Virus record (IMG/VR): IMGVR_UViG_3300023179_000241
Span: 1 to 39,400 of that record
DNA from: a virus
DNA: 39,400 bases
Direction: 5' to 3' (one strand)
A program made the position numbers and the translations under genes. Position 1 is the stretch's first letter. Each line of letters starts with the position of its first letter. The notes beneath the pieces were generated by a model. It searched no databases. It had not been told where the DNA came from and saw only the letters and a program-made list of their open reading frames with translations. Positions 1-39,400 of the stretch are shown piece by piece.

Positions 1-93
1 CGCGCCAAGACTGCCGGTCTCGCGGGCACGGAGCATCTGCCGTGGATACTTGTTCCAGTTGCCCTTCCCACCGAGACCGGCAGTCTTGGCGCG
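1..93. repeat. Inverted fold-back repeat at the window's left end
   Basis: Bases 1-21 are the exact reverse complement of bases 73-93, separated by 51 bases. The sequence from 22 onward reads as the 5' part of the leftward recT gene, but in bases 1-21 the gene stops matching its own 3' part at the other end of the window and runs back into an inverted copy of itself. A real hairpin end is possible. A chimeric amplification or assembly product is the simpler reading, because true flanking recT sequence exists at the right end of the window. Confidence 0.8.
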
Positions 94-2707: not shown

Positions 2708-3269
2708 CTTCATCTCCAATCCACACGTCTGCGAGTGCAGCGGCAATTGCTTTCCCGTTGTTCTCCCACGACTTGCACCAGTCCATGCACGCCTCCCGCA
2801 TCGCCTCCGCTCCGCGGCGGTAGGCGTCCTCTCCCTCGCGCTTCGCTTCGAGCCGCACGCGCGTCGTCTCGTTGGTCTGGTCGGCGAGCTGGTGCATGAG
2901 GCGCTCCACCTCGCAGCGCGCTTCGTACAGTTCTTTGCGCACCTGGTCGAGCATAGCCCGAACGTCCACGGTGTGAGCGCTTGCCGCCTCGTAAGACGTG
3001 CGCCACCGCTCCACCTCGGCGCGCGCTTCGTTGCGCTCTTGCGCGATCTTGCAAAAGTCGTCGGCTGCACATTCGCAGCGTCGGCTTTTCCATTCTGTGG
3101 TGGCATCAGCAAGAGCTGCGCGCGCTTCGTCGCGCTCGCGGCATGCGTCCTTCCAATCGCTCTCGAACATGTACGCGCTATCTTGGGCCACGTCGCGCTC
3201 GCGTGTGCGGAACGCAAGCTCGCGCATGGCTACCTCTAGGCGAGCTTCGAGTTCTTCTACGGTCTTCAT
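2700..3269 (-). CDS. Long coiled-coil early protein
   Basis: A 189-residue protein that is almost entirely charged helix with heptad-like spacing: VEELEARLEVAMRELAFRTR, then repeated ERDEARA/ERNEARAEVERW segments, then LYEARCEVERLMHQLADQ. The end has EAMREACMDWCKSW. The ATG at 3269 overlaps the previous TGA (TGATG); GTG 3272 is the alternative. Coiled coils of this type next to Ea22-like genes are frequent in phage early operons and may form oligomeric scaffolds or act on host partners. No enzymatic motif is visible. Confidence 0.65.
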   Translation of the reverse strand: MKTVEELEARLEVAMRELAFRTRERDVAQDSAYMFESDWKDACRERDEARAALADATTEWKSRRCECAADDFCKIAQERNEARAEVERWRTSYEAASAHTVDVRAMLDQVRKELYEARCEVERLMHQLADQTNETTRVRLEAKREGEDAYRRGAEAMREACMDWCKSWENNGKAIAAALADVWIGDEDE

Positions 3270-3598
3270 CACCGCCCCCTCTTGCGCACCATGGCGACGA
3301 CGGCGCGGTAGGTCTCCCAGTCGCCGAAGACGGCATCGTGCACGTCCGTTGGCAGCTTCTTTGCGCGGAAGGTCGACGCTGCCGTTTCCTCGGCGGTCGC
3401 ACCGATGGCCTCGCAGACACGTTCTACGAAGCCTGCGGTGTATCCGCAGTACCTTTGGTCCAGCTCGAAGTTGCTGATGCTGGACTGAGAAGTGCCAGAA
3501 GCCCTGGCGGTTGCAGTCAGCGACATGCCGGCGCGTCCACGGATGGTGCGCATGTCGGCAATGTTGTACGGCTGCGGGTTGAGTTTACGCTCGTTCAT
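3269..3598 (-). CDS. XRE-family helix-turn-helix regulator (Cro/CI-type)
   Basis: A 109-residue protein. Residues about 13-70 form an XRE helix-turn-helix: ADMRTIRGRAGMSLTATARA, then the recognition turn SGTSQSSISNFE, then a third helical part with FVERVCEAIGA. The rest is a short unknown tail. AGAGGAGG precedes ATG 3598. It is the only clear regulator in the early operon and so the natural candidate to bind the operator-like dyads in the divergent promoter region at 4.64-4.73 kb. Its length fits a Cro-like or antitoxin-like regulator better than a full CI repressor with a dimerisation domain. No partner toxin is evident. Confidence 0.75.
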   Translation of the reverse strand: MNERKLNPQPYNIADMRTIRGRAGMSLTATARASGTSQSSISNFELDQRYCGYTAGFVERVCEAIGATAEETAASTFRAKKLPTDVHDAVFGDWETYRAVVAMVRKRGR

Positions 3599-4768: not shown

Positions 4769-5065
4769 ATGGCAGGACCATATGCAACGCGGGGCGTAAA
4801 GCCCTCCGAGGAGGCGGCGCAGCGCGTGAAGCGCACGTCGCCGACCATCAAGGAGCAAGTGCTGAAGTACGTCAAAGAGCACCCAGGCACGACGTGCGAG
4901 GAGGCCACGCAGGGCCTCAAGCTCAAGCACCAGTCGTGCTCACCAAGGTTCCTCGAACTGGTCGAGGAGAAGCGCATCGAGTTCGATGAGGTTCGAGGAC
5001 CCGATGGGCGAACCCTTCGACGGTATCGAATCGTTGAGGATCCGAAACAAGGGAGGCTGTTTTGA
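4769..5065 (+). CDS. Winged-helix-like protein, first gene of the short rightward operon
   Basis: A 98-residue protein starting at ATG 4769 behind GAGAGG. After a basic N-terminus, residues about 28-90 read as a winged helix: SPTIKEQVLKYVKEHPGTTC, then EEATQGLKLKHQSCSPRFLE, then LVEEKRIEFDEV and a wing with GPDGRTLRRYRI. This is similar to small DNA-binding domains used by phages to read promoters or origins. Being first after the divergent promoter, it may be a regulator opposing the leftward operon. The role is inferred. Confidence 0.65.
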   Translation: MAGPYATRGVKPSEEAAQRVKRTSPTIKEQVLKYVKEHPGTTCEEATQGLKLKHQSCSPRFLELVEEKRIEFDEVRGPDGRTLRRYRIVEDPKQGRLF

Positions 5066-5973: not shown

Positions 5974-6007
5974 ACCGGCAGGGCGTTGTGCTCTGCCGGT
6001 TTTTATT
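5974..6007 (+). terminator. Rho-independent terminator of the 4769-5920 operon
   Basis: ACCGGCAG pairs perfectly with CTGCCGGT across a loop of about 10 bases, followed by TTTTTATTT. It lies some 50 bases after the last rightward gene, as expected for an operon end. Confidence 0.8.
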
Positions 6008-6017
6008 TGCAGCTAGA

Positions 6018-6064
6018 TACTGTATATGTGTTAACCGCACACATAGAGTATACTGTTAGTATAC
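6018..6064. promoter_or_regulatory. AT-rich dyad block with two GTATAC sites
   Basis: TACTGTA at 6018-6024 is followed by TATGTGT (6025-6031) and its exact inverse ACACATA (6039-6045) around a seven-base spacer. GTATAC follows at 6048-6053 and 6059-6064, 11 bases apart, about one helical turn. TACTGTA is the inverse of the TACAGTA repeats at 8.33-8.38 kb. On the minus strand GTATACTCTA here repeats the rightward promoter sequence at 4723-4732. The arrangement looks like a set of protein binding sites; the protein is unknown. Confidence 0.55.
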
Positions 6065-6282
6065 GGTAAGCGTCTTACGGATATCCCTGCGGCTAGCACG
6101 TCGCCGAGGCTAGCGGCAAGCTCTGCCCACCATTCTACCGGTGAAACGGCGACAGCCAATTGCCGCGCCTAGGATGGCCATAGAATCAACGATGCTAGCT
6201 TTGGGCGGGTAGGGTAGCACCGGAGCCACAAACGGCCGTTTAAAGGCATTCTGGATGGGCTTGCTAGCTGGCTAGGCTGTGG

Positions 6283-6312
6283 GCCTAGGGCAGCCTAGGG
6301 CAGCCTAGGGCA
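6283..6312. repeat. Three perfect tandem copies of a 10-base unit
   Basis: GCCTAGGGCA is repeated exactly three times at 6283, 6293 and 6303. Each copy centres on the palindrome CCTAGG, so the palindromes are spaced 10 bases apart on one face of the helix. It lies eight bases before the leftward terminator stem. Confidence 0.9.
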
Positions 6313-6319
6313 AAGCAGA

Positions 6320-6349
6320 AAGCCCTCGGTCCGTGGGGACCGAGGGCTT
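6320..6349 (-). terminator. Terminator of the leftward accessory operon
   Basis: A perfect 13-base-pair stem, AAGCCCTCGGTCC with its inverse, encloses a four-base loop. On the minus strand it is followed by TCTGCTTTG, a modest T-rich tail. It lies about 50 bases past the stop of the gene at 6401-7108. The stem could also slow rightward transcription leaking past 6007. Confidence 0.75.
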
Positions 6350-7639: not shown

Positions 7640-7888
7640 TCAAAGGCCGATAGCCTCGGCCAGCTCGGCGCAGCGCTCTTCCTCGCTTTGCGCGGCGGTG
7701 GCCAGGTCTTCGCAGCTCTCAGCGGACAAGCGACGCCAAGCGCGCGGCATCGGCGTATCGAGCGGGAAGCCGTACAGCTCTTCCACCGTGGATTCGGAAA
7801 GGGAGCAGACGGTCTCCAGAACGTCTTCCACGGTGAGTTCGCGGAGGCACTCAGGGAAGGTGAGCATCATATCGAATGGGTTACGCAT
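7640..7888 (-). CDS. Small acidic protein, first gene of the leftward accessory operon
   Basis: An 82-residue acidic protein starting at ATG 7888, with AGGA eight bases upstream. It begins MRNPFDMMLTFPECLRELTV and contains ETVCSLSESTVEELYGFPLD and a C-terminal acidic helix. Small acidic phage proteins near promoters often bind host enzymes or mimic DNA, but no family is recognised. It lies about 45 bases from the proposed promoter. Confidence 0.6.
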   Translation of the reverse strand: MRNPFDMMLTFPECLRELTVEDVLETVCSLSESTVEELYGFPLDTPMPRAWRRLSAESCEDLATAAQSEEERCAELAEAIGL

Positions 7889-7962: not shown

Positions 7963-8140
7963 CTAAGAAAGATGTAGAAAACGAAGTACGATAGAAGAGC
8001 ATGGAAAAAGACTGGTCAAAAAGAAACCATCTTGACGAGCGCCCGCTAGCATAGTCTCTCTGGATCTAGGAGCGCAGCGACGACGAGCCAGAGTCGAGCG
8101 CCGTAGGTCGCTTCTCTGCGCGCTGTGCGCGCTGCCTCTG

Positions 8141-8235: not shown

Positions 8236-8400
8236 ACGTATATACGTTAATGAGACCTAGAAATGTCTTATATATTCAGTACATACGATATATGTAAGGT
8301 ATAGGTACAGTTAAGGTATATACGTATATACAGTATAGATATGGTATATACAGTATACAGTACTATACAGTACATACAGTATATAACGCGCGTACGCGCG
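8236..8400. repeat. AT-rich array of palindromes and TACAGTA repeats upstream of the terminase gene
   Basis: The palindromes are ACGTATATACGT (8236-8247), GTATATACGTATATAC (8316-8331) and CGCGCGTACGCGCG (8387-8400). TACAGTA occurs exactly at 8329, 8349, 8356, 8366 and 8375, with near copies TTCAGTA (8275) and TACAGTT (8306). All copies point the same way, crowding toward the GC palindrome. This looks like an iteron or multi-site operator next to easily melted DNA, as in origins or packaging sites. Its function is inferred. Confidence 0.75.
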
Positions 8401-8513
8401 AGGGGGATGCGCCTACGGCGCTGGGGACTGGAAAGATAGAAGCCTCCGTGTGCCCTGGGAGGGGGTACATGTGACAATCTGAGAGGGGGCCGGGGCCTTA
8501 GAACCCCTTTCTT

Positions 8514-8531
8514 CCATACCCTCTGGTATGG
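8514..8531 (+). promoter_or_regulatory. Short hairpin before the terminase gene
   Basis: CCATACC-ctct-GGTATGG is a perfect seven-base-pair hairpin ending 25 bases before the terminase ATG. There is no T-run, so it is more likely an operator or a 5' mRNA structure than a terminator. Confidence 0.5.
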
Positions 8532-8556
8532 CCTTCTATCATGCTATTGAGGCTGG

Positions 8557-10191
8557 ATGGCATACGCGCAGGACAAGCGGAAGACGGCGGTAGAGGGCAA
8601 TCAGGCGGAGAGGCTAGCTAGGCTTACGAAGGCTCTTGAGAGGGAGCTGGATGAGAAGCGGGTGAAGCTAGGGAGCATGGAGGAGCTTCTGGTTCACCCT
8701 CTTGGGTTTGGTCTCAAGACGGCGAGCATTGTGCAGAGGGCCATCATGCGGGTAGCGGATGGGAAGCCGCTTGGGGATTTGTGGGGTCATCCGGCGGTGG
8801 TTCGTGCCTTTGGAGGGGAGGAGCCGCAGCTTGAGGGCAAGCCGAAGGAGATGGCTGTTTTGAGTGCCATCAGGTGTGGCAAGAGCTTGATGGCTGCGTG
8901 CATGGCGGTGCATTGGACGCAGGTTTGTGCGGTGGAGCACCTGGGTCCTGGAGAGGTGCCAAGAGTCTCGATTGTCAGCATCAACAAGGACTTGGCGGAG
9001 GTCATCTTCGGGCATGTGGTGGGCCGGGTGATGGCGTCTCCTGCCTTGAAGGGCTTGGTGATGGGGGAGCCTACGACGGACACGATTGTGCTCAGGCATC
9101 CGTCTGGACGGCCTGTGGAGATCAAGGTTGTGGCGGGCTCACGCTCGGGTTCTACGCTTGTGGCGCGCTGGTCGGCTGGGGCTGTGTTTGACGAGTTCCC
9201 TCGTATGCTTGGAGAGGGGGAGGCTGTGGTCAACTGGGACGACATGCGGAAGGCTGTCTTGCTGCGCATCCTGCCTGGCTCGCAGGTCATCTCGATTGGC
9301 AGTCCTTGGGCACCGTTTGGTCCTGCGTACAACGTGGTGAAGGAGCACTATGGCCGTCCTACGCGGAACATGGTGGTGGTGAAGGCACCTGGCTGGGACT
9401 TGAACCCGCAGCTATGGACCCCGCAGGCGGTCAGGGATGCCGAGGAGAAGGACCCGCAAGCCTTCCGCACCGACGTGGCTGCGGAGTTTGCCCAGCCTGA
9501 AGAGTCGCTCATCACGCAAGACTCGCTCGATGCGGCCACGAGACCTGCTCCGCTCATCGAGACTCCCAAGCCCGGTGTGCAGTACAGCGCGGCCATTGAC
9601 CCTGCGACGCGTGGCAACGCCTGGACGCTCATCATTGCCTGCCAGGAGGGCGACAAACGGCGTGTTGCACTGGCCAGGCAGTGGATAGGCTCGGCAGCAG
9701 CTCCGCTGCGTCCTGGGGCCATCCTGGAGGAAGTGGCGAGGCTTTGCCGTGCTTACCGCATCTCGGTCCTCGACTCGGACCAGTACTACGGCGATGCGTT
9801 GCGAGACCTGGCGGCTCAGCAGAAGCTCGTGCTCGTGGTCCATGCCTGGACGGAGAGGGAGAAGCTGGCCAAGTTCCTCGCCCTCAAGACCATGTTCGAG
9901 CAAGGCATGGTCGAGATTCCCGCAGACCAGACGCTCAGGAGCGACCTTGGACGGGTCAAGAAGGTGCTCAAGGGCAGCGGTGCCAGCATCAACTTCCCGC
10001 GTACGTCAGACGGTCGCCACTGCGACTATGCCCCCTGCCTTGCCATGGCCCTCGCTCGCTACTGGCAAACCGACGAGGACGTGCAGGAGGCCCAAGGCGA
10101 GCTTTCCAAGCTCCAGGCCGAAGAGCGCGTCATGCTCAAGCGCATCCTCGATAGGGCCGCTCCCAAGGACGGATGGGGCTATTCCTGGTAG
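8557..10191 (+). CDS. terL: Terminase large subunit (packaging ATPase and nuclease)
   Basis: A 544-residue motor protein that drives DNA into the prohead and cuts it. Residues 104-112 (AIRCGKSLM) hold the Walker A-like GKS, and VFDEFPRM (D212, E213) is the Walker B plus catalytic glutamate. A coupling-type motif ISIGSPW lies near 246. The C-terminal RNase H-like nuclease shows YSAAIDPA (D348), ISVLDSD (D406/D408) and a late HCDYAP (D490), consistent with its acidic cluster. GAGG lies four bases before ATG 8557. It starts the late operon. A small subunit is not adjacent; a candidate is on the other strand at 34894-35412. Confidence 0.93.
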   Translation: MAYAQDKRKTAVEGNQAERLARLTKALERELDEKRVKLGSMEELLVHPLGFGLKTASIVQRAIMRVADGKPLGDLWGHPAVVRAFGGEEPQLEGKPKEMAVLSAIRCGKSLMAACMAVHWTQVCAVEHLGPGEVPRVSIVSINKDLAEVIFGHVVGRVMASPALKGLVMGEPTTDTIVLRHPSGRPVEIKVVAGSRSGSTLVARWSAGAVFDEFPRMLGEGEAVVNWDDMRKAVLLRILPGSQVISIGSPWAPFGPAYNVVKEHYGRPTRNMVVVKAPGWDLNPQLWTPQAVRDAEEKDPQAFRTDVAAEFAQPEESLITQDSLDAATRPAPLIETPKPGVQYSAAIDPATRGNAWTLIIACQEGDKRRVALARQWIGSAAAPLRPGAILEEVARLCRAYRISVLDSDQYYGDALRDLAAQQKLVLVVHAWTEREKLAKFLALKTMFEQGMVEIPADQTLRSDLGRVKKVLKGSGASINFPRTSDGRHCDYAPCLAMALARYWQTDEDVQEAQGELSKLQAEERVMLKRILDRAAPKDGWGYSW

Positions 10192-18245: not shown

Positions 18246-21200
18246 TGCCGACTCGTGACCAAGTTCTTCAGGTTCCCTTTGTCGGCAGCATCGACGAGTA
18301 CACGGACCCGGACCAGCTTCAGCCTCCTACGATGGCCTCGCTGGAGAACGCCGTCGTACGCAAGACGGGCCGCATCGAGAAGCGCGAAGGCTTCGAGTAC
18401 ATCCAGAAGACTGGTGTTCCTGGCACTCCGGCCCAGACGTTTGCTGGTACGGCACTTCCTGTTGATATGCAGGCGCTGAGCGCATACAGCGGCAAGGACG
18501 GTTCAAAGCTGCTCCTGGCTGCTGGTGATACGCTGTTTGAGTATGTTGGCTCAGATGCCGATCACGGCTACCGGGCCGTAAACAAGCTGCCGTCGTGCTA
18601 TGGGACGCTGCACCCCGTTGATTCTACTGGCGGCGAGGTAATCGAAGTCGAGTCGATGCTGAGCGACGACGGGCAACTTCGTTGCACTGTCTGGGTGCTT
18701 GGGTATCGGAACGGCCAGGACCTGACAAACGATCGAGCTGTCTCGACGCAGCCGGTTGGAACACATGGCGTGTATGCAGCCGTGCAGCGCGTTTCTGATG
18801 GAGCGTTCGTTACGGCACCTGTGAGAATCAAGGATTCATTTGGTAATGACACGACTCGGTGCAGCGACCTGCGAATGGCTATGTCGAGGGGTTCTTCGGG
18901 AAACGATCGTCATTGGGTCGTAGCATTCCGTAGAGACTACTCAGTCATCGAGGCATTCGCCGTCATCTCGACGAGCGGAAGCATCAAGTCGACGGACTTG
19001 ATTCAAACTCCGTTCACAGGTCGTCCGTACTGGAGATCGTTTGATATTACAGGTGTCTACAACGAGCAGTACATGCTGTTTGCATACTGCGAACCAGACA
19101 CATCTCCAGCGTCGTCTGACGTGCTTCTAAAGTTGCTGTCGTTCGATGTTACAACTGGAGCCTTCTCCATCGTGCATACCTACGGTGGAGGCGTCCTGGA
19201 TGCTGCAAACGCATATGGCTCAACGACGTACAGCGTTCATGACTGGAATCGACGTACTCCGCGTGGCGTAGTGCTTGAGAGCAGCCCTGTCACGTCAACC
19301 GTTGCTATCTCTGTGCGAACTGTCCATGAGATGGACACTGCTCCACTGTATCTTGATGGCAAGTTTGTGGTTACTCGTGCAAACTGCTCGACATCAACGA
19401 TCTCGATTGCGTTTGACGAGTTTGCATGGCTTCACCGTTCTGGTTTTCAGACCGAGGATAGCTTCGCTCTGTTCTCAACTGGCGCGATGTACCAGAGCAA
19501 GTACAGCGGAAGTTCTAGCGCGACTGGTACTAGAATCTATCCGTTTGTCTACTCTGCGCTGACATCGCCACTGTCTGTTGTTACGGCTGAGTTTGACGAT
19601 GGGTCTGTGCAAACGTACTCGCTTAGCCTTGTTGTTCAGGGCAGCCTTACTGCGTACAACAACCCAACCATCTTTCGAGGAAGTCCTTCTAACACGAGGA
19701 TTGTGAACTCTGGCGTCTTCGCGAATCAGCTTCGCCAGCTTCACCAGTACCCATCGGACAACTCCGTCAATGTTATTGAGCCGAACAATGTGGCTCTAAC
19801 ATCCATAGACGATGCTGCCATTAACCAGAGAAACGTAACGAGCGTGCGCATCGCTGGCGCTAACGTCGTTAGTCTTGCACTGGCAAACTCGGTTAGGTTC
19901 TGCCGACTGTCCAGCGCAGCAGGAGTTAAGTGTCTTGCTGTCATCGCTTTTGATGCAGCTGGCATCCCAGTAGAGGTTGATCTCTATGATGGGCGTGGAG
20001 ACGTGACGGCGAATGTGCTCGGAGCACCAGCTCTGACGGACATCATCTCAATTGAGACCAGAGCCAATCCATACAGCGGCGCGTGGGGCGCTCCGATTGC
20101 GGTGCCTCCAGCAACCATCCGCGTGTTTGACGACTTCAACAGTGCCGTTGGAAACACCAACACAAGTCCAGTTTTTAACGACATTGGCGCGAACACTCAG
20201 CCTGTTGCGCAGACTATTGTCGAAACGAGCGTAGGCGTTGAACAGTGTGTTCATCGTTGGGACGTTGCGACAGTTGGGAACTCTATCATCCTCGCGGTGT
20301 CATCCGTATCGGCTGCAACATTCAGTGGTCCAAACGGAGATGCGCCACTTGGCTACGTTAGTCCGTTTGCTCGAAGCAACTACTTCGAGGTGTACCCGTG
20401 GGTACCTGCGTTTCAAACAAGGTGGGACCTCAACGATTACGCGACAACGGGATCATCTGTCGCAAGGCCAATCTGGTGTGCGGTTGGCGGGCCATGGAGA
20501 ATGACTGGCGGATTGGTTAAGCTGTCCAGTGACAGGTATGGATGCGTGCTTATGCCTGGCGGAGACGATCTTCAGAGAAGTTCGTTCTTTGTCTCGTTTA
20601 CGAACGGCGAGGCGACCGTCCAAACGAGCCTCGACCCGATTGATGGAACGCCAGTCCAGTATGCTGGTGGCGTTGTCTATGATGGCAACAAAGGTGTCTT
20701 CGTCGAGTCGATGAACATGCCGCGCACCGCAGCGGTTCCACTCAACTGTCCTAGGTTTAGCTCGGACGGAGCTTACCTGTTCTCGCTTGGAGCCATTCGT
20801 CAGGGGCAGAATGTCGGCGGCAGCGACATCTTTGCCTTGGACTACTCGTTCTCAGCGAAGGACTGGAGGTCGATGAAGCAGTGGGGTGACTACACCGTTG
20901 TCAACGGTGGCATTCCAAGCTCGTTTGACGGCTCATCTTGCAGTGAAGTCGCGATGCTGTTGTGGCCGCAGCGAGACCTGACAAGCATCGCGTATGAACC
21001 AGACCCAGCGTTGCTGTATGACCCAAATGCCAAGTTTTCACCAGGGAATCTTTGGACGCTGAACTCTTCGGCGTATCGAACGTATTCGTTTGGTGGTCCG
21101 TTTTTGATCAACATCTCAAGGCCATGGTTTGCCTACGAGGCTGGTTTTAAAGCCAAGAACGAGTTCACCGACGAGTATCTTAATCCTACTGGAATCGACA

Positions 21201-34295: not shown

Positions 34296-34897
34296 TGGGC
34301 GTAGAGCGTGCCGCTAGACGGACGCCTGTGACTCCAGAGCAGGTGTTTCTATCGTTTGCTACGGCCTGGCAGCTTCTGACTGGCCAGCCTCCGCAGCGGC
34401 ACGTCCTTCACATCCTCCACGCCCAGTCTGCCTTGGAGACGGGGCATTGGAAGAGCCTCTACAACTTCAACCTTGGCGGAGCCAAGAAGCACGGCGTATG
34501 CGACTGGACCTACTTCACGACGACGGAGCGGTTCCCTCATGCCGTAGCCGACAAGCATCTGGCCTCATCGAAGCCTGGGTCAGAGGTCACGCTCGTGAGG
34601 ACGGACGCGACGCACAAGACCCTCAAGTTCTCTGGCAAGCAGTCGATGAACTGCTTCGCGAGCTGGGAGGACTTGGACTCCGCCGCGAAAGATCACATCG
34701 CCCTGCTGTTCCGCCGCTTCCCCAAGGCGATTGAGCGAGCCAAAGAGGGCGACGCGACGGGGTATGTACGCGAACTCAAGAAGGCTGGCTACTTTACGGC
34801 GAGCGAAGAAGAGTACTCGAAGACGGTCAACAGCATCGCCAAGAGCTACGAGAAGAAGCTCTCGAACGTGATGCTGCCGACCGTGGTGATCCTCTAG
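34295..34897 (+). CDS. Endolysin, glucosaminidase/lysozyme-like
   Basis: A 200-residue protein starting at ATG 34295. Residues about 41-65 (LHAQSALETGHWKSLYNFNL followed by GGAK) are the signature of the FlgJ-type glucosaminidase and related lysozyme-superfamily enzymes, with E48 as the likely catalytic residue and the YNFNLGG segment lining the cleft. The C-terminus (ERAKEGDATGYVRELKKAGY, then a YSKTVNSIAKSYEKKL-type helix) also fits this group. It probably cuts peptidoglycan glycan strands at lysis; a virion-associated role is possible. No signal peptide is seen, so it likely relies on a holin. The stop shares CTAG with the opposing gene's stop. Confidence 0.8.
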   Translation: MGVERAARRTPVTPEQVFLSFATAWQLLTGQPPQRHVLHILHAQSALETGHWKSLYNFNLGGAKKHGVCDWTYFTTTERFPHAVADKHLASSKPGSEVTLVRTDATHKTLKFSGKQSMNCFASWEDLDSAAKDHIALLFRRFPKAIERAKEGDATGYVRELKKAGYFTASEEEYSKTVNSIAKSYEKKLSNVMLPTVVIL

Positions 34898-35412
34898 CTC
34901 TCGTGGCCCATTAGGTCGTTGACGATAACGGCGGCCACCTCTTCTGCCGAGGACTGGCCAGTGAGCAGCTTCGTCTTGAGCAGGTCCATGCGCTGCTGCT
35001 GCTCAAGCACCTTGAGCTTGATGGTGGCCTGTGTGCCCGTAGCCTGGCTCAGCTTGTAGGCTGCGTCAGCGGCGGCACGCAGGTCGCCCTGCTGCATCGA
35101 CTGCTCGATGACCGAGGCCAGGGTGGAAGTCACAAGCTCGTGTGCTCCCTGCGGCCTCAGAATGGACCTTCTCGTGTTCCGTCGTGCCTCCCGGATGCAT
35201 CCCTGCACCTGCTGCTCGGAAAGCCCGTAGGACCGCCTTACGGTGCCTGCATCAAGCTCCTCGTTCCAGTCGCTCTCCAGCATCCTCCGAGTGATGAGTT
35301 CAACGGCGAAGAACTCAGCCTCGTCGCCGCTCATCTCGAAGGGTGCAGTGGGGAAGCGCTGCGCCTGTGGCTCAAGCGTTTGAAGCGCCAGGTTTTGCTT
35401 CTTCCTAGGCAT
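34894..35412 (-). CDS. Putative small terminase-like DNA-binding protein
   Basis: A 172-residue leftward protein, last in the early operon. Residues about 35-85 (VELITRRMLESDWNEELDAG, VRRSYGLSEQQVQGCIREAR) carry a helix-turn-helix with a recognition helix near QQVQGCIREARRN. Residues 90-155 are helical and probably oligomerising (TSTLASVIEQSMQQGDLRAA, KVLEQQQRMDLLKTKLL). Helix-turn-helix followed by a helical oligomer core is the layout of terminase small subunits. A general early regulator is the alternative. It lies on the strand opposite the large subunit. ATG 35412 overlaps the upstream stop. Confidence 0.5.
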   Translation of the reverse strand: MPRKKQNLALQTLEPQAQRFPTAPFEMSGDEAEFFAVELITRRMLESDWNEELDAGTVRRSYGLSEQQVQGCIREARRNTRRSILRPQGAHELVTSTLASVIEQSMQQGDLRAAADAAYKLSQATGTQATIKLKVLEQQQRMDLLKTKLLTGQSSAEEVAAVIVNDLMGHES

Positions 35413-35827: not shown

Positions 35828-35856
35828 ATTATACGGGCTTCTTCGGGGGCCGTCCA
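35828..35856 (-). promoter_or_regulatory. Strong leftward promoter at the end of the AT-hook gene
   Basis: On the minus strand TGGACG (35856-35851, four of six) is followed after 17 bases by a perfect TATAAT (35833-35828). It overlaps the stop codon of the upstream gene and would transcribe the genes at 35405 and 34894 separately from the rest of the leftward operon. Confidence 0.7.
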
Positions 35857-36194
35857 CGTCGTTTGGGCGGCTGCACGGGAGCCTCCTTCGGAAGCTCAGA
35901 CAGGACGACCTGCGGCTTCGGAGGAGGAACGGGCATTGTCATGTACTGGAAGATGGCATCCTTCGCCCCTGGCAGCATGTAACTAGTTTCGTGCTGCTTC
36001 TTCTCAGCTTCCTCGGGCTCCTCCTCAACCTCAGCCCAGCGCAGCATGGTCGCGCTGATGACGGTGTGCGTCTTGGTGCCTTGGCAGATGCGGATGATGT
36101 TCCCGTCAAGCATCACCTCCCATCCGTTCTTGGGGTGAAGGCTCTCGGTGAGGTTGGTCCCAGTCCACGGGGTGCGGACGGGATAGACGAGCAT
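35829..36194 (-). CDS. AT-hook protein (121 aa)
   Basis: Start chosen at ATG 36194 (GAAG six bases upstream); an upstream ATG at 36212 adds six residues. A small N-terminal domain (VRTPWTGTNLTESLHPKNGW, GNIIRICQGTKTHTVI) is followed by acidic and proline-rich linkers. The end PPKRRGRPPKKPV contains the RGRP core of an AT hook, which binds the minor groove of AT-rich DNA. In this GC-rich genome the obvious AT-rich targets are the control regions near 6.03 and 8.3 kb; that link is inference. Confidence 0.65.
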   Translation of the reverse strand: MLVYPVRTPWTGTNLTESLHPKNGWEVMLDGNIIRICQGTKTHTVISATMLRWAEVEEEPEEAEKKQHETSYMLPGAKDAIFQYMTMPVPPPKPQVVLSELPKEAPVQPPKRRGRPPKKPV

Positions 36195-36202
36195 GGCGTA
36201 CT

Positions 36203-36556
36203 TCAGTCGCATTTGCGGCACCGCTTTGGCATGTTGTAGAGGAAGTTGGTTTGGAACATGGTGCTCGTGTTTTTGCAGCGTTTGCACACTACGTCCCACT
36301 TGCGAGGATTGTCGGTTGGCGCAGATACCGTATAGATTCCGTATGTGCCTCCAACCTCGACCTTGGCAATCTTCGGTGTGCTCGTTCTGCGCTTGCACCC
36401 GCAGGAGCGCACGCCGGCAGAGACGATGGCCGTGCGCGTACGCTTGACCACTTTGCCGCAGGCGCATTCACAGACGAACGGGTGAACGCTCTTGACGGTC
36501 AGATACCCAATGATGGCTCCGACCGTGAGGTCTGACTTCTCAACGTGCTGCTTCAC
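36203..36556 (-). CDS. Double zinc-motif protein (117 aa)
   Basis: Starts in an ATGA overlap at 36556. The first half (AIIGYLTVKSV, VCECACGKVVKR, GVRSCGC) carries the same C-x-C-x-C-G...S-C-G-C pattern as the rightward gene at 5672-5920. The second half is a separate ribbon, CKRCKN ending CRKCD. These motifs suggest two zinc sites and nucleic-acid binding. The two related genes on different operons may be an old duplication or independent acquisitions. Confidence 0.65.
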   Translation of the reverse strand: MKQHVEKSDLTVGAIIGYLTVKSVHPFVCECACGKVVKRTRTAIVSAGVRSCGCKRRTSTPKIAKVEVGGTYGIYTVSAPTDNPRKWDVVCKRCKNTSTMFQTNFLYNMPKRCRKCD

Positions 36557-38957: not shown

Positions 38958-39400
38958 CACAGCACCTCCTCGACAGCCGGAACCGTGTCTTCGACGACAG
39001 GCGTCGGGTTCTGAAGCTCCGCCTTCTTCTTGGCGAAGAGGTCGCGAAGCTCCTTAGCGACAGCGCCCTTCAGACCCCGCTTCTTGATCTGCTCGCCGAC
39101 TACCTTCAGCGCGACCTCGGTCGTGCAGGCGTCGATGGCCTCGCGGAAGCCCACGATGTCGTCGTCGTCCACGACCGCCTCAGCAGGCGCGCTAGCGGGC
39201 TCAGGAAGCGCCTCGATGGCCGCAGGCTTGATGGCCACGGGCGACGGCTTGATCGTCGCGGGGACGGCCTCGTAGGCGGCCTGGCGATGGTCGAAGTCCT
39301 GCACCTCTTCGGGGGTATAAACCCCGACGACGCATGCAGGAAAGACGGTACGGATGCCTTCGGAGATGACGCGGGCACGGAGCATCTGCCTGGGGTACTT
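38957..39400 (-). CDS. recT: RecT-type single-strand annealing protein, 3' part
   Basis: The frame is open at the right edge and begins KYPRQMLRARVISEGIRTVF, the conserved continuation of RecT-like phage proteins, then ACVVGVYTPEEVQDFD. A proline/alanine-rich linker (SPVAIKPAAIEALPEPASAP) follows, then a small helical C-terminal domain (VALKVVGEQIKKRGLKGAVA, KELRDLFAKKKAELQ) and an acidic tail. The ten-codon overlap with the 5' part at 1-426 differs at only three synonymous positions. The stop overlaps the exonuclease start, coupling the two. Confidence 0.78.
   Translation of the reverse strand, partial: KYPRQMLRARVISEGIRTVFPACVVGVYTPEEVQDFDHRQAAYEAVPATIKPSPVAIKPAAIEALPEPASAPAEAVVDDDDIVGFREAIDACTTEVALKVVGEQIKKRGLKGAVAKELRDLFAKKKAELQNPTPVVEDTVPAVEEVL

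Follow-up and report, generated by a model that had tools for sequence, protein, structure and literature searches.

The window, by which we mean the whole 39.4-kb stretch of an IMG/VR virus record that was analyzed, overlaps itself at its ends (21-51 against 39370-39400), and a RecT-like reading frame runs unbroken across the joined ends, so that what we have is essentially a complete, circularly assembled genome. (Bases 1-31 are also an imperfect inverted copy of bases 63-93, within window 1-93, which probably arose as a fold-back artefact when the contig end was assembled.) The genome is 61% GC. Its late genes point rightward, from 8557 to 34897, and encode the terminase large subunit (TerL, the first gene of the late operon; 8557-10191, plus strand; phrog_38, E = 1.6e-7), a T7-type portal (phrog_332), a major head protein (phrog_14242) and a tail fibre. 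The leftward genes occupy the stretch from 4630 across the junction to 34894 and include RecT, an exonuclease, an SSB-like protein and an XRE regulator; the probable SSB was recognized by eye, from the acidic SSB-like tail, DDIPF, that ends one protein of the leftward cluster. Among named phages, TerL reaches 27% at best and the portal and major capsid protein find no match at all, and a search by terminase patterns yielded no prophage relatives in cultured genomes. The comparison suggests a lineage that resembles named phages little; to call it podovirus-like and undescribed would be a speculative reading.

Between the leftward small ORFs, the first of which (7640-7888, minus strand, no assigned function) faces the late operon and starts at 7888, and the start of that operon at 8557 lies a gap of about 670 bp, and within it the feature that concerns us here: an AT-rich array (8236-8385, 28% GC). 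Five exact copies of TACAGTA (8329, 8349, 8356, 8366 and 8375) are where the first-pass annotation had placed them, and the two near copies that it counted are TTCAGTA at 8275 (an exact TACAGTA in the contigs L002-L004) and TACAGTT at 8306. With them stand six GTA-NN-TAC and three copies of a composite 12-mer, GTANNTACNGTA (8324, 8344 and 8370), which occurs nowhere else in the window, four times and again only within the array in the relative G001, and not at all in G002-G005. The annotation also had every TACAGTA facing one way, and in their centre base the copies do agree; the motif, however, is a 7-bp odd palindrome, whose orientation is set by that centre base and nothing else. The true repeat unit is a dyad, TACNGTA, nested with GTA-NN-TAC.

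How much of this could be had for free from base composition? Three hundred shuffles of the window never reached a five-copy TACAGTA cluster (the largest was one), and when the AT-rich dinucleotide content of the array itself is taken as the baseline, TACAGTA/TACTGTA is found 5 times where 0.6 are expected (P = 0.0008) and GTANNTAC 6 times where 0.8 are expected (P < 0.001). TAC-N-GTA has 5 copies in the window and 6 in G001 (0.7-0.8 expected), GTA-NN-TAC has 6 and 5 (0.8 expected), and in both genomes the spacing of half-sites peaks sharply at TAC-1-GTA and at GTA-2-TAC, adjacent spacings being near or below expectation. Successive TACAGTA copies in the window are irregularly spaced (20, 7, 10 and 9 bp); the TACNGTA spacings in G001 are 26, 18, 22, 9 and 51. 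The array is a real feature, not chance. The palindromes reported with it, a 12-base AT palindrome at 8236-8247 (ACGTATATACGT), a 16-base AT palindrome at 8316-8331 (GTATATACGTATATAC) and a 14-bp palindrome bounding the array on its right, 8387-8400 (CGCGCGTACGCGCG; kept in L002-L004, absent from G001), are likewise present as described. Their positions were right; their numbers are unremarkable genome-wide, with 10 palindromes of at least 12 bases in the whole window against 15.7 expected in shuffles, which is no excess, and 3 against 0.86 locally at the array (P = 0.07).

The closest relatives are three contigs of the same species (L002, L003 and L004; TerL protein 100% identical), so close to one another that together they make about one independent comparison, and against them the core of the array (8277-8400) has not one substitution in 124 positions, and against L003 no indel. 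The flanks, compared with L003, have 33 substitutions in 386 positions (8.5%) and indels as well (core against flanks, Fisher P = 1e-4); at the rate of TerL third positions, zero changes in 124 would have a P of about 9e-4. An unchanged core between divergent flanks argues that the array is probably under selection. In G001 (TerL 86%), an array lies at the matching place with six TACNGTA, all of them TACGGTA or TACTGTA; that is, the centre base is A in the window and G or T in G001, and the TAC and GTA arms are unchanged. Constant arms around a drifting centre are the pattern expected from a dimeric protein at a symmetric site. The lineages known to bear the array are these two, the window's and that of G001, whose sequence comes without the early genes. 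G002, G003 and G004 (TerL 72-74%) share the window's gene order and retain terminase, RecT, exonuclease and probable SSB, and yet they have no array, AT island or motif cluster, so that the array is neither a shared origin nor a shared packaging site. A wider scan for TATACNGTA arrays gave many matches that were AT-rich contigs and apparent LexA boxes, and its GC-richest matches included no clear relative.

What every relative covering the position does share is a strongly conserved non-coding block, some 70-80 bp long, where the late operon starts (8461-8540, plus strand; GGGGGTRCATGTGMC..GGGGCYATGGCAWACCCCTTC..ATAYCC..GGCTTTCTAC), with copies in G001 (2275), L006 (123), G002 (16967), G003 (about 24560), G004 (9), G005 (427) and L010 (about 293). 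It is the only non-coding element common to all of them at that place, and it holds a GGGG..CCCC dyad and GGGGTATR-like arms arranged ++--. As a structured RNA it was tried and rejected, the folding signal being inconsistent (z of +1.0, -0.2, +1.5 and -3.9); it is probably a DNA element, and a candidate for a cos/terminus or a late-promoter element. Directly to its left, G002 and G005 carry GC-rich repeats of 10 and 12 bp in place of the array. On the leftward-gene side of the gap, a conserved dyad-like element, TGGTCAAAAAGAAACCATCTTGAC / TGGTCAARRAAATACCAKMTTGAC (TGGTCA..ACCA..TTGAC; 8013-8036), recurs in G001 (1799), G003 (24022) and G004 (37292) and is possibly a promoter or operator of the leftward genes. 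A consensus search found no rightward-facing sigma-70 promoter in the gap and none inside the array, and Rfam gave no relevant match. Comparison of the relatives suggests that the block, rather than the array, is the more fundamental element of the locus. A cassette of small genes that in the window lies in the leftward operon beside the XRE gene (1950-2969) is found in G002 (18495-20060) and G005 ahead of TerL, with the conserved block on its other side, and in L040 (2382-4643) XRE, the cassette and a different TerL follow in line.

A second, smaller motif cluster, which the first reading had missed, lies at 6018-6068 (TACTGTA at 6018, TACGGTA at 6062), flanked by two convergent intrinsic terminators (5974-6000, plus strand; 6349-6320, minus strand). 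The same gap (5974-6349) holds three perfect 10-bp repeats, GCCTAGGGCA (6283-6312), and at the matching place the relatives have CG-rich low-complexity sequence instead. The vocabulary that the 8.2-kb and 6.0-kb low-complexity gaps share within each genome was considered as a sign of a common factor and rejected as such, being no more than base composition gives.

It is useful to ask what the array resembles. The LexA SOS box of enterobacteria is TACTGTATATATATACAGTA, and its half-site, ATATACAGTA, is identical in the window's array, but the array has no CTGT-N8-ACAG pair, nor any CTGT anywhere in 8236-8400; prophage contigs from the motif scan (L053 and L072) do carry apparent true SOS boxes. 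In the lactococcal phage TP901-1, CI and MOR act at a multi-site operator region with divergent promoters (PMC7250872). As there, several dyads occupy a gap from which two phage gene clusters diverge, in a genome with an XRE-type regulator; unlike there, the unit is a 7-bp TACNGTA with an extra GTA-NN-TAC half-site overlap, the gap precedes late rather than early genes, the gene of the candidate regulator is not adjacent, and binding is a prediction. The ribbon-helix-helix protein omega/ParB of plasmid pSM19035 reads WATCACW heptads that are non-palindromic and contiguous, and full activation of ParA needs at least four gapless repeats (PMC9499535). The short 7-bp sites densely arrayed over a control region are alike, whereas those of the window are dyads with irregular gaps; among the genes scanned by profile there was no ParA, and no ribbon-helix-helix protein was recognized.

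Three readings had been offered for the array, an iteron origin, a packaging site and a late-promoter operator, and of these the operator fits best and the other two are weaker. For origin and packaging the annotation had named array-less relatives with intact replication and packaging as the refuting case, and G002, G003 and G004, which have the genes for both, are such relatives, although an origin or a packaging accessory peculiar to this lineage may still be present at low probability. The grounds are the divergent gap before the late operon, the free-centre dyads, the lineage specificity and an XRE gene absent from the three relatives that lack the array; several copies of one dyad sit in an intergenic control region, and the sequence of the sites is conserved (0/124 against 33/386). 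We propose, at what we judge to be an evenly balanced probability, that the array is a lineage-specific multi-site operator for a dimeric regulator encoded by the phage, most likely the XRE protein at 3269-3598 (minus strand; HTH_31, PF13560, E = 2.3e-9). A dimeric DNA-binding protein of this lineage would read TAC half-sites as TAC-N-GTA and as GTA-NN-TAC, several dimers would sit side by side along the AT-rich stretch, and once bound they would control transcription from the divergent gap, chiefly its passage into the late operon at 8557. We infer from sequence that a protein binds the array and which one it would be, as well as its action in repression or activation. The XRE regulator is the leading candidate for the reader because it is an HTH_31 protein and its gene is missing from the array-less G002, G003 and G004; other small proteins of the phage include two of winged-helix type (4769-5065 and 455-970). 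Against the pairing stands L040, which has a 77% identical XRE protein and is array-free over its 11.7 kb, although the stretch left of its winged-helix gene, where the counterpart of the array would fall, lies outside the contig. Against the operator itself are the start of the XRE gene, which has no motif cluster, the missing right-facing sigma-70 consensus, and the cluster at 6018-6068, which lies between convergent gene clusters and not at an obvious promoter.

Need the sites be read at all? A stretch of 28% GC might act without site-specific recognition, as a promoter spacer, as flexible TpA-rich DNA, or as the target of a host xenogeneic silencer or an AT-hook protein, and the phage does encode an AT-hook protein (35829-36212). 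We think this unlikely, given motif counts above those of dinucleotide-matched shuffles, zero substitutions in 124 bp and an AT-hook protein that is kept where relatives have no AT island; as an array-specific reader, too, that protein was rejected, since it also occurs in the array-less relatives. A lineage-specific origin, made up of repeats that bind the initiator and an AT-rich region that unwinds, in a phage that has RecT, exonuclease and a probable SSB, would suit an AT-rich, TpA-rich island inside a 61% GC genome, and among the genes scanned there was no recognizable replicative polymerase, helicase or primase. Two unrelated viral contigs, L057 (GC 0.62) and L137 (GC 0.59), have TACTGTATATATATACAGTA in an AT core with GC-rich repeats on either side. 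(These short repeats surround the core at 500-560 in L057 and 2145-2190 in L137 and have the look of an iteron origin; the L057 gene downstream of the core is presumably VapE-like, and both cores are possible origins.) Iteron origins of phages and plasmids have an AT-rich stretch and repeated short sites at regular spacing. The array is irregular where iterons recur every 17-22 bp and lacks direct repeats regularly spaced at about one or two helical turns, no linked initiator was recognized, and GC skew makes no clean switch at 8.2 kb; nor is the array retained where relatives have these replication genes, for G002, G003 and G004 share RecT, exonuclease and SSB-like genes without the array or AT island. 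An origin is improbable here.

The contest over packaging turns on the neighboring block, which would be the cos/terminus, the array to its left giving the small terminase an accessory site. The block is universal at its position and has its GGGG..CCCC dyad; a TerS-like protein of 172 amino acids is encoded where the late region ends, away from TerL (34894-35412, minus strand; its model is all-helical, its N-terminal part looks HTH-like, and it is conserved at 60-64%); only 9 bp separate the start of the G004 contig from the block to its right, and seven of the eight incomplete contigs (L002, L003, L004, L006, L010, G004 and G005) start less than 500 bp to the left of the block. Those starts, at 9, 123, 236, about 290, 369, 427 and 470 bp, do not fall at one base, however, and G002 and G003 open elsewhere; with starts so scattered and a left flank that evolves fast, assembly breaks explain them equally well, and a physical end, hypervariability or repeats may each lie behind them. 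The possible small terminase found no significant match in a fold search, and G002, G003 and G004 keep their packaging genes at 60-90% and do without the array, which tells against the packaging site proposed earlier. We regard this account as quite improbable for the array, and the evidence suggests that a packaging role suits the conserved block more naturally. A broader version, in which the whole 7.9-8.56 kb gap is a packaging and replication control centre, the block its terminus, and the arrays of each sublineage (TACNGTA in this one, the GC-rich 10- and 12-bp repeats of G002 and G005 in theirs) are replaced rapidly with their position kept, strikes us as a long shot.

If the operator reading is true, the array would hold a compact site code, TAC and GTA arms fixed and the centre free, for the regulator of a phage lineage unlike the named phages, and it would offer a direct handle on how late genes are switched in this lineage.
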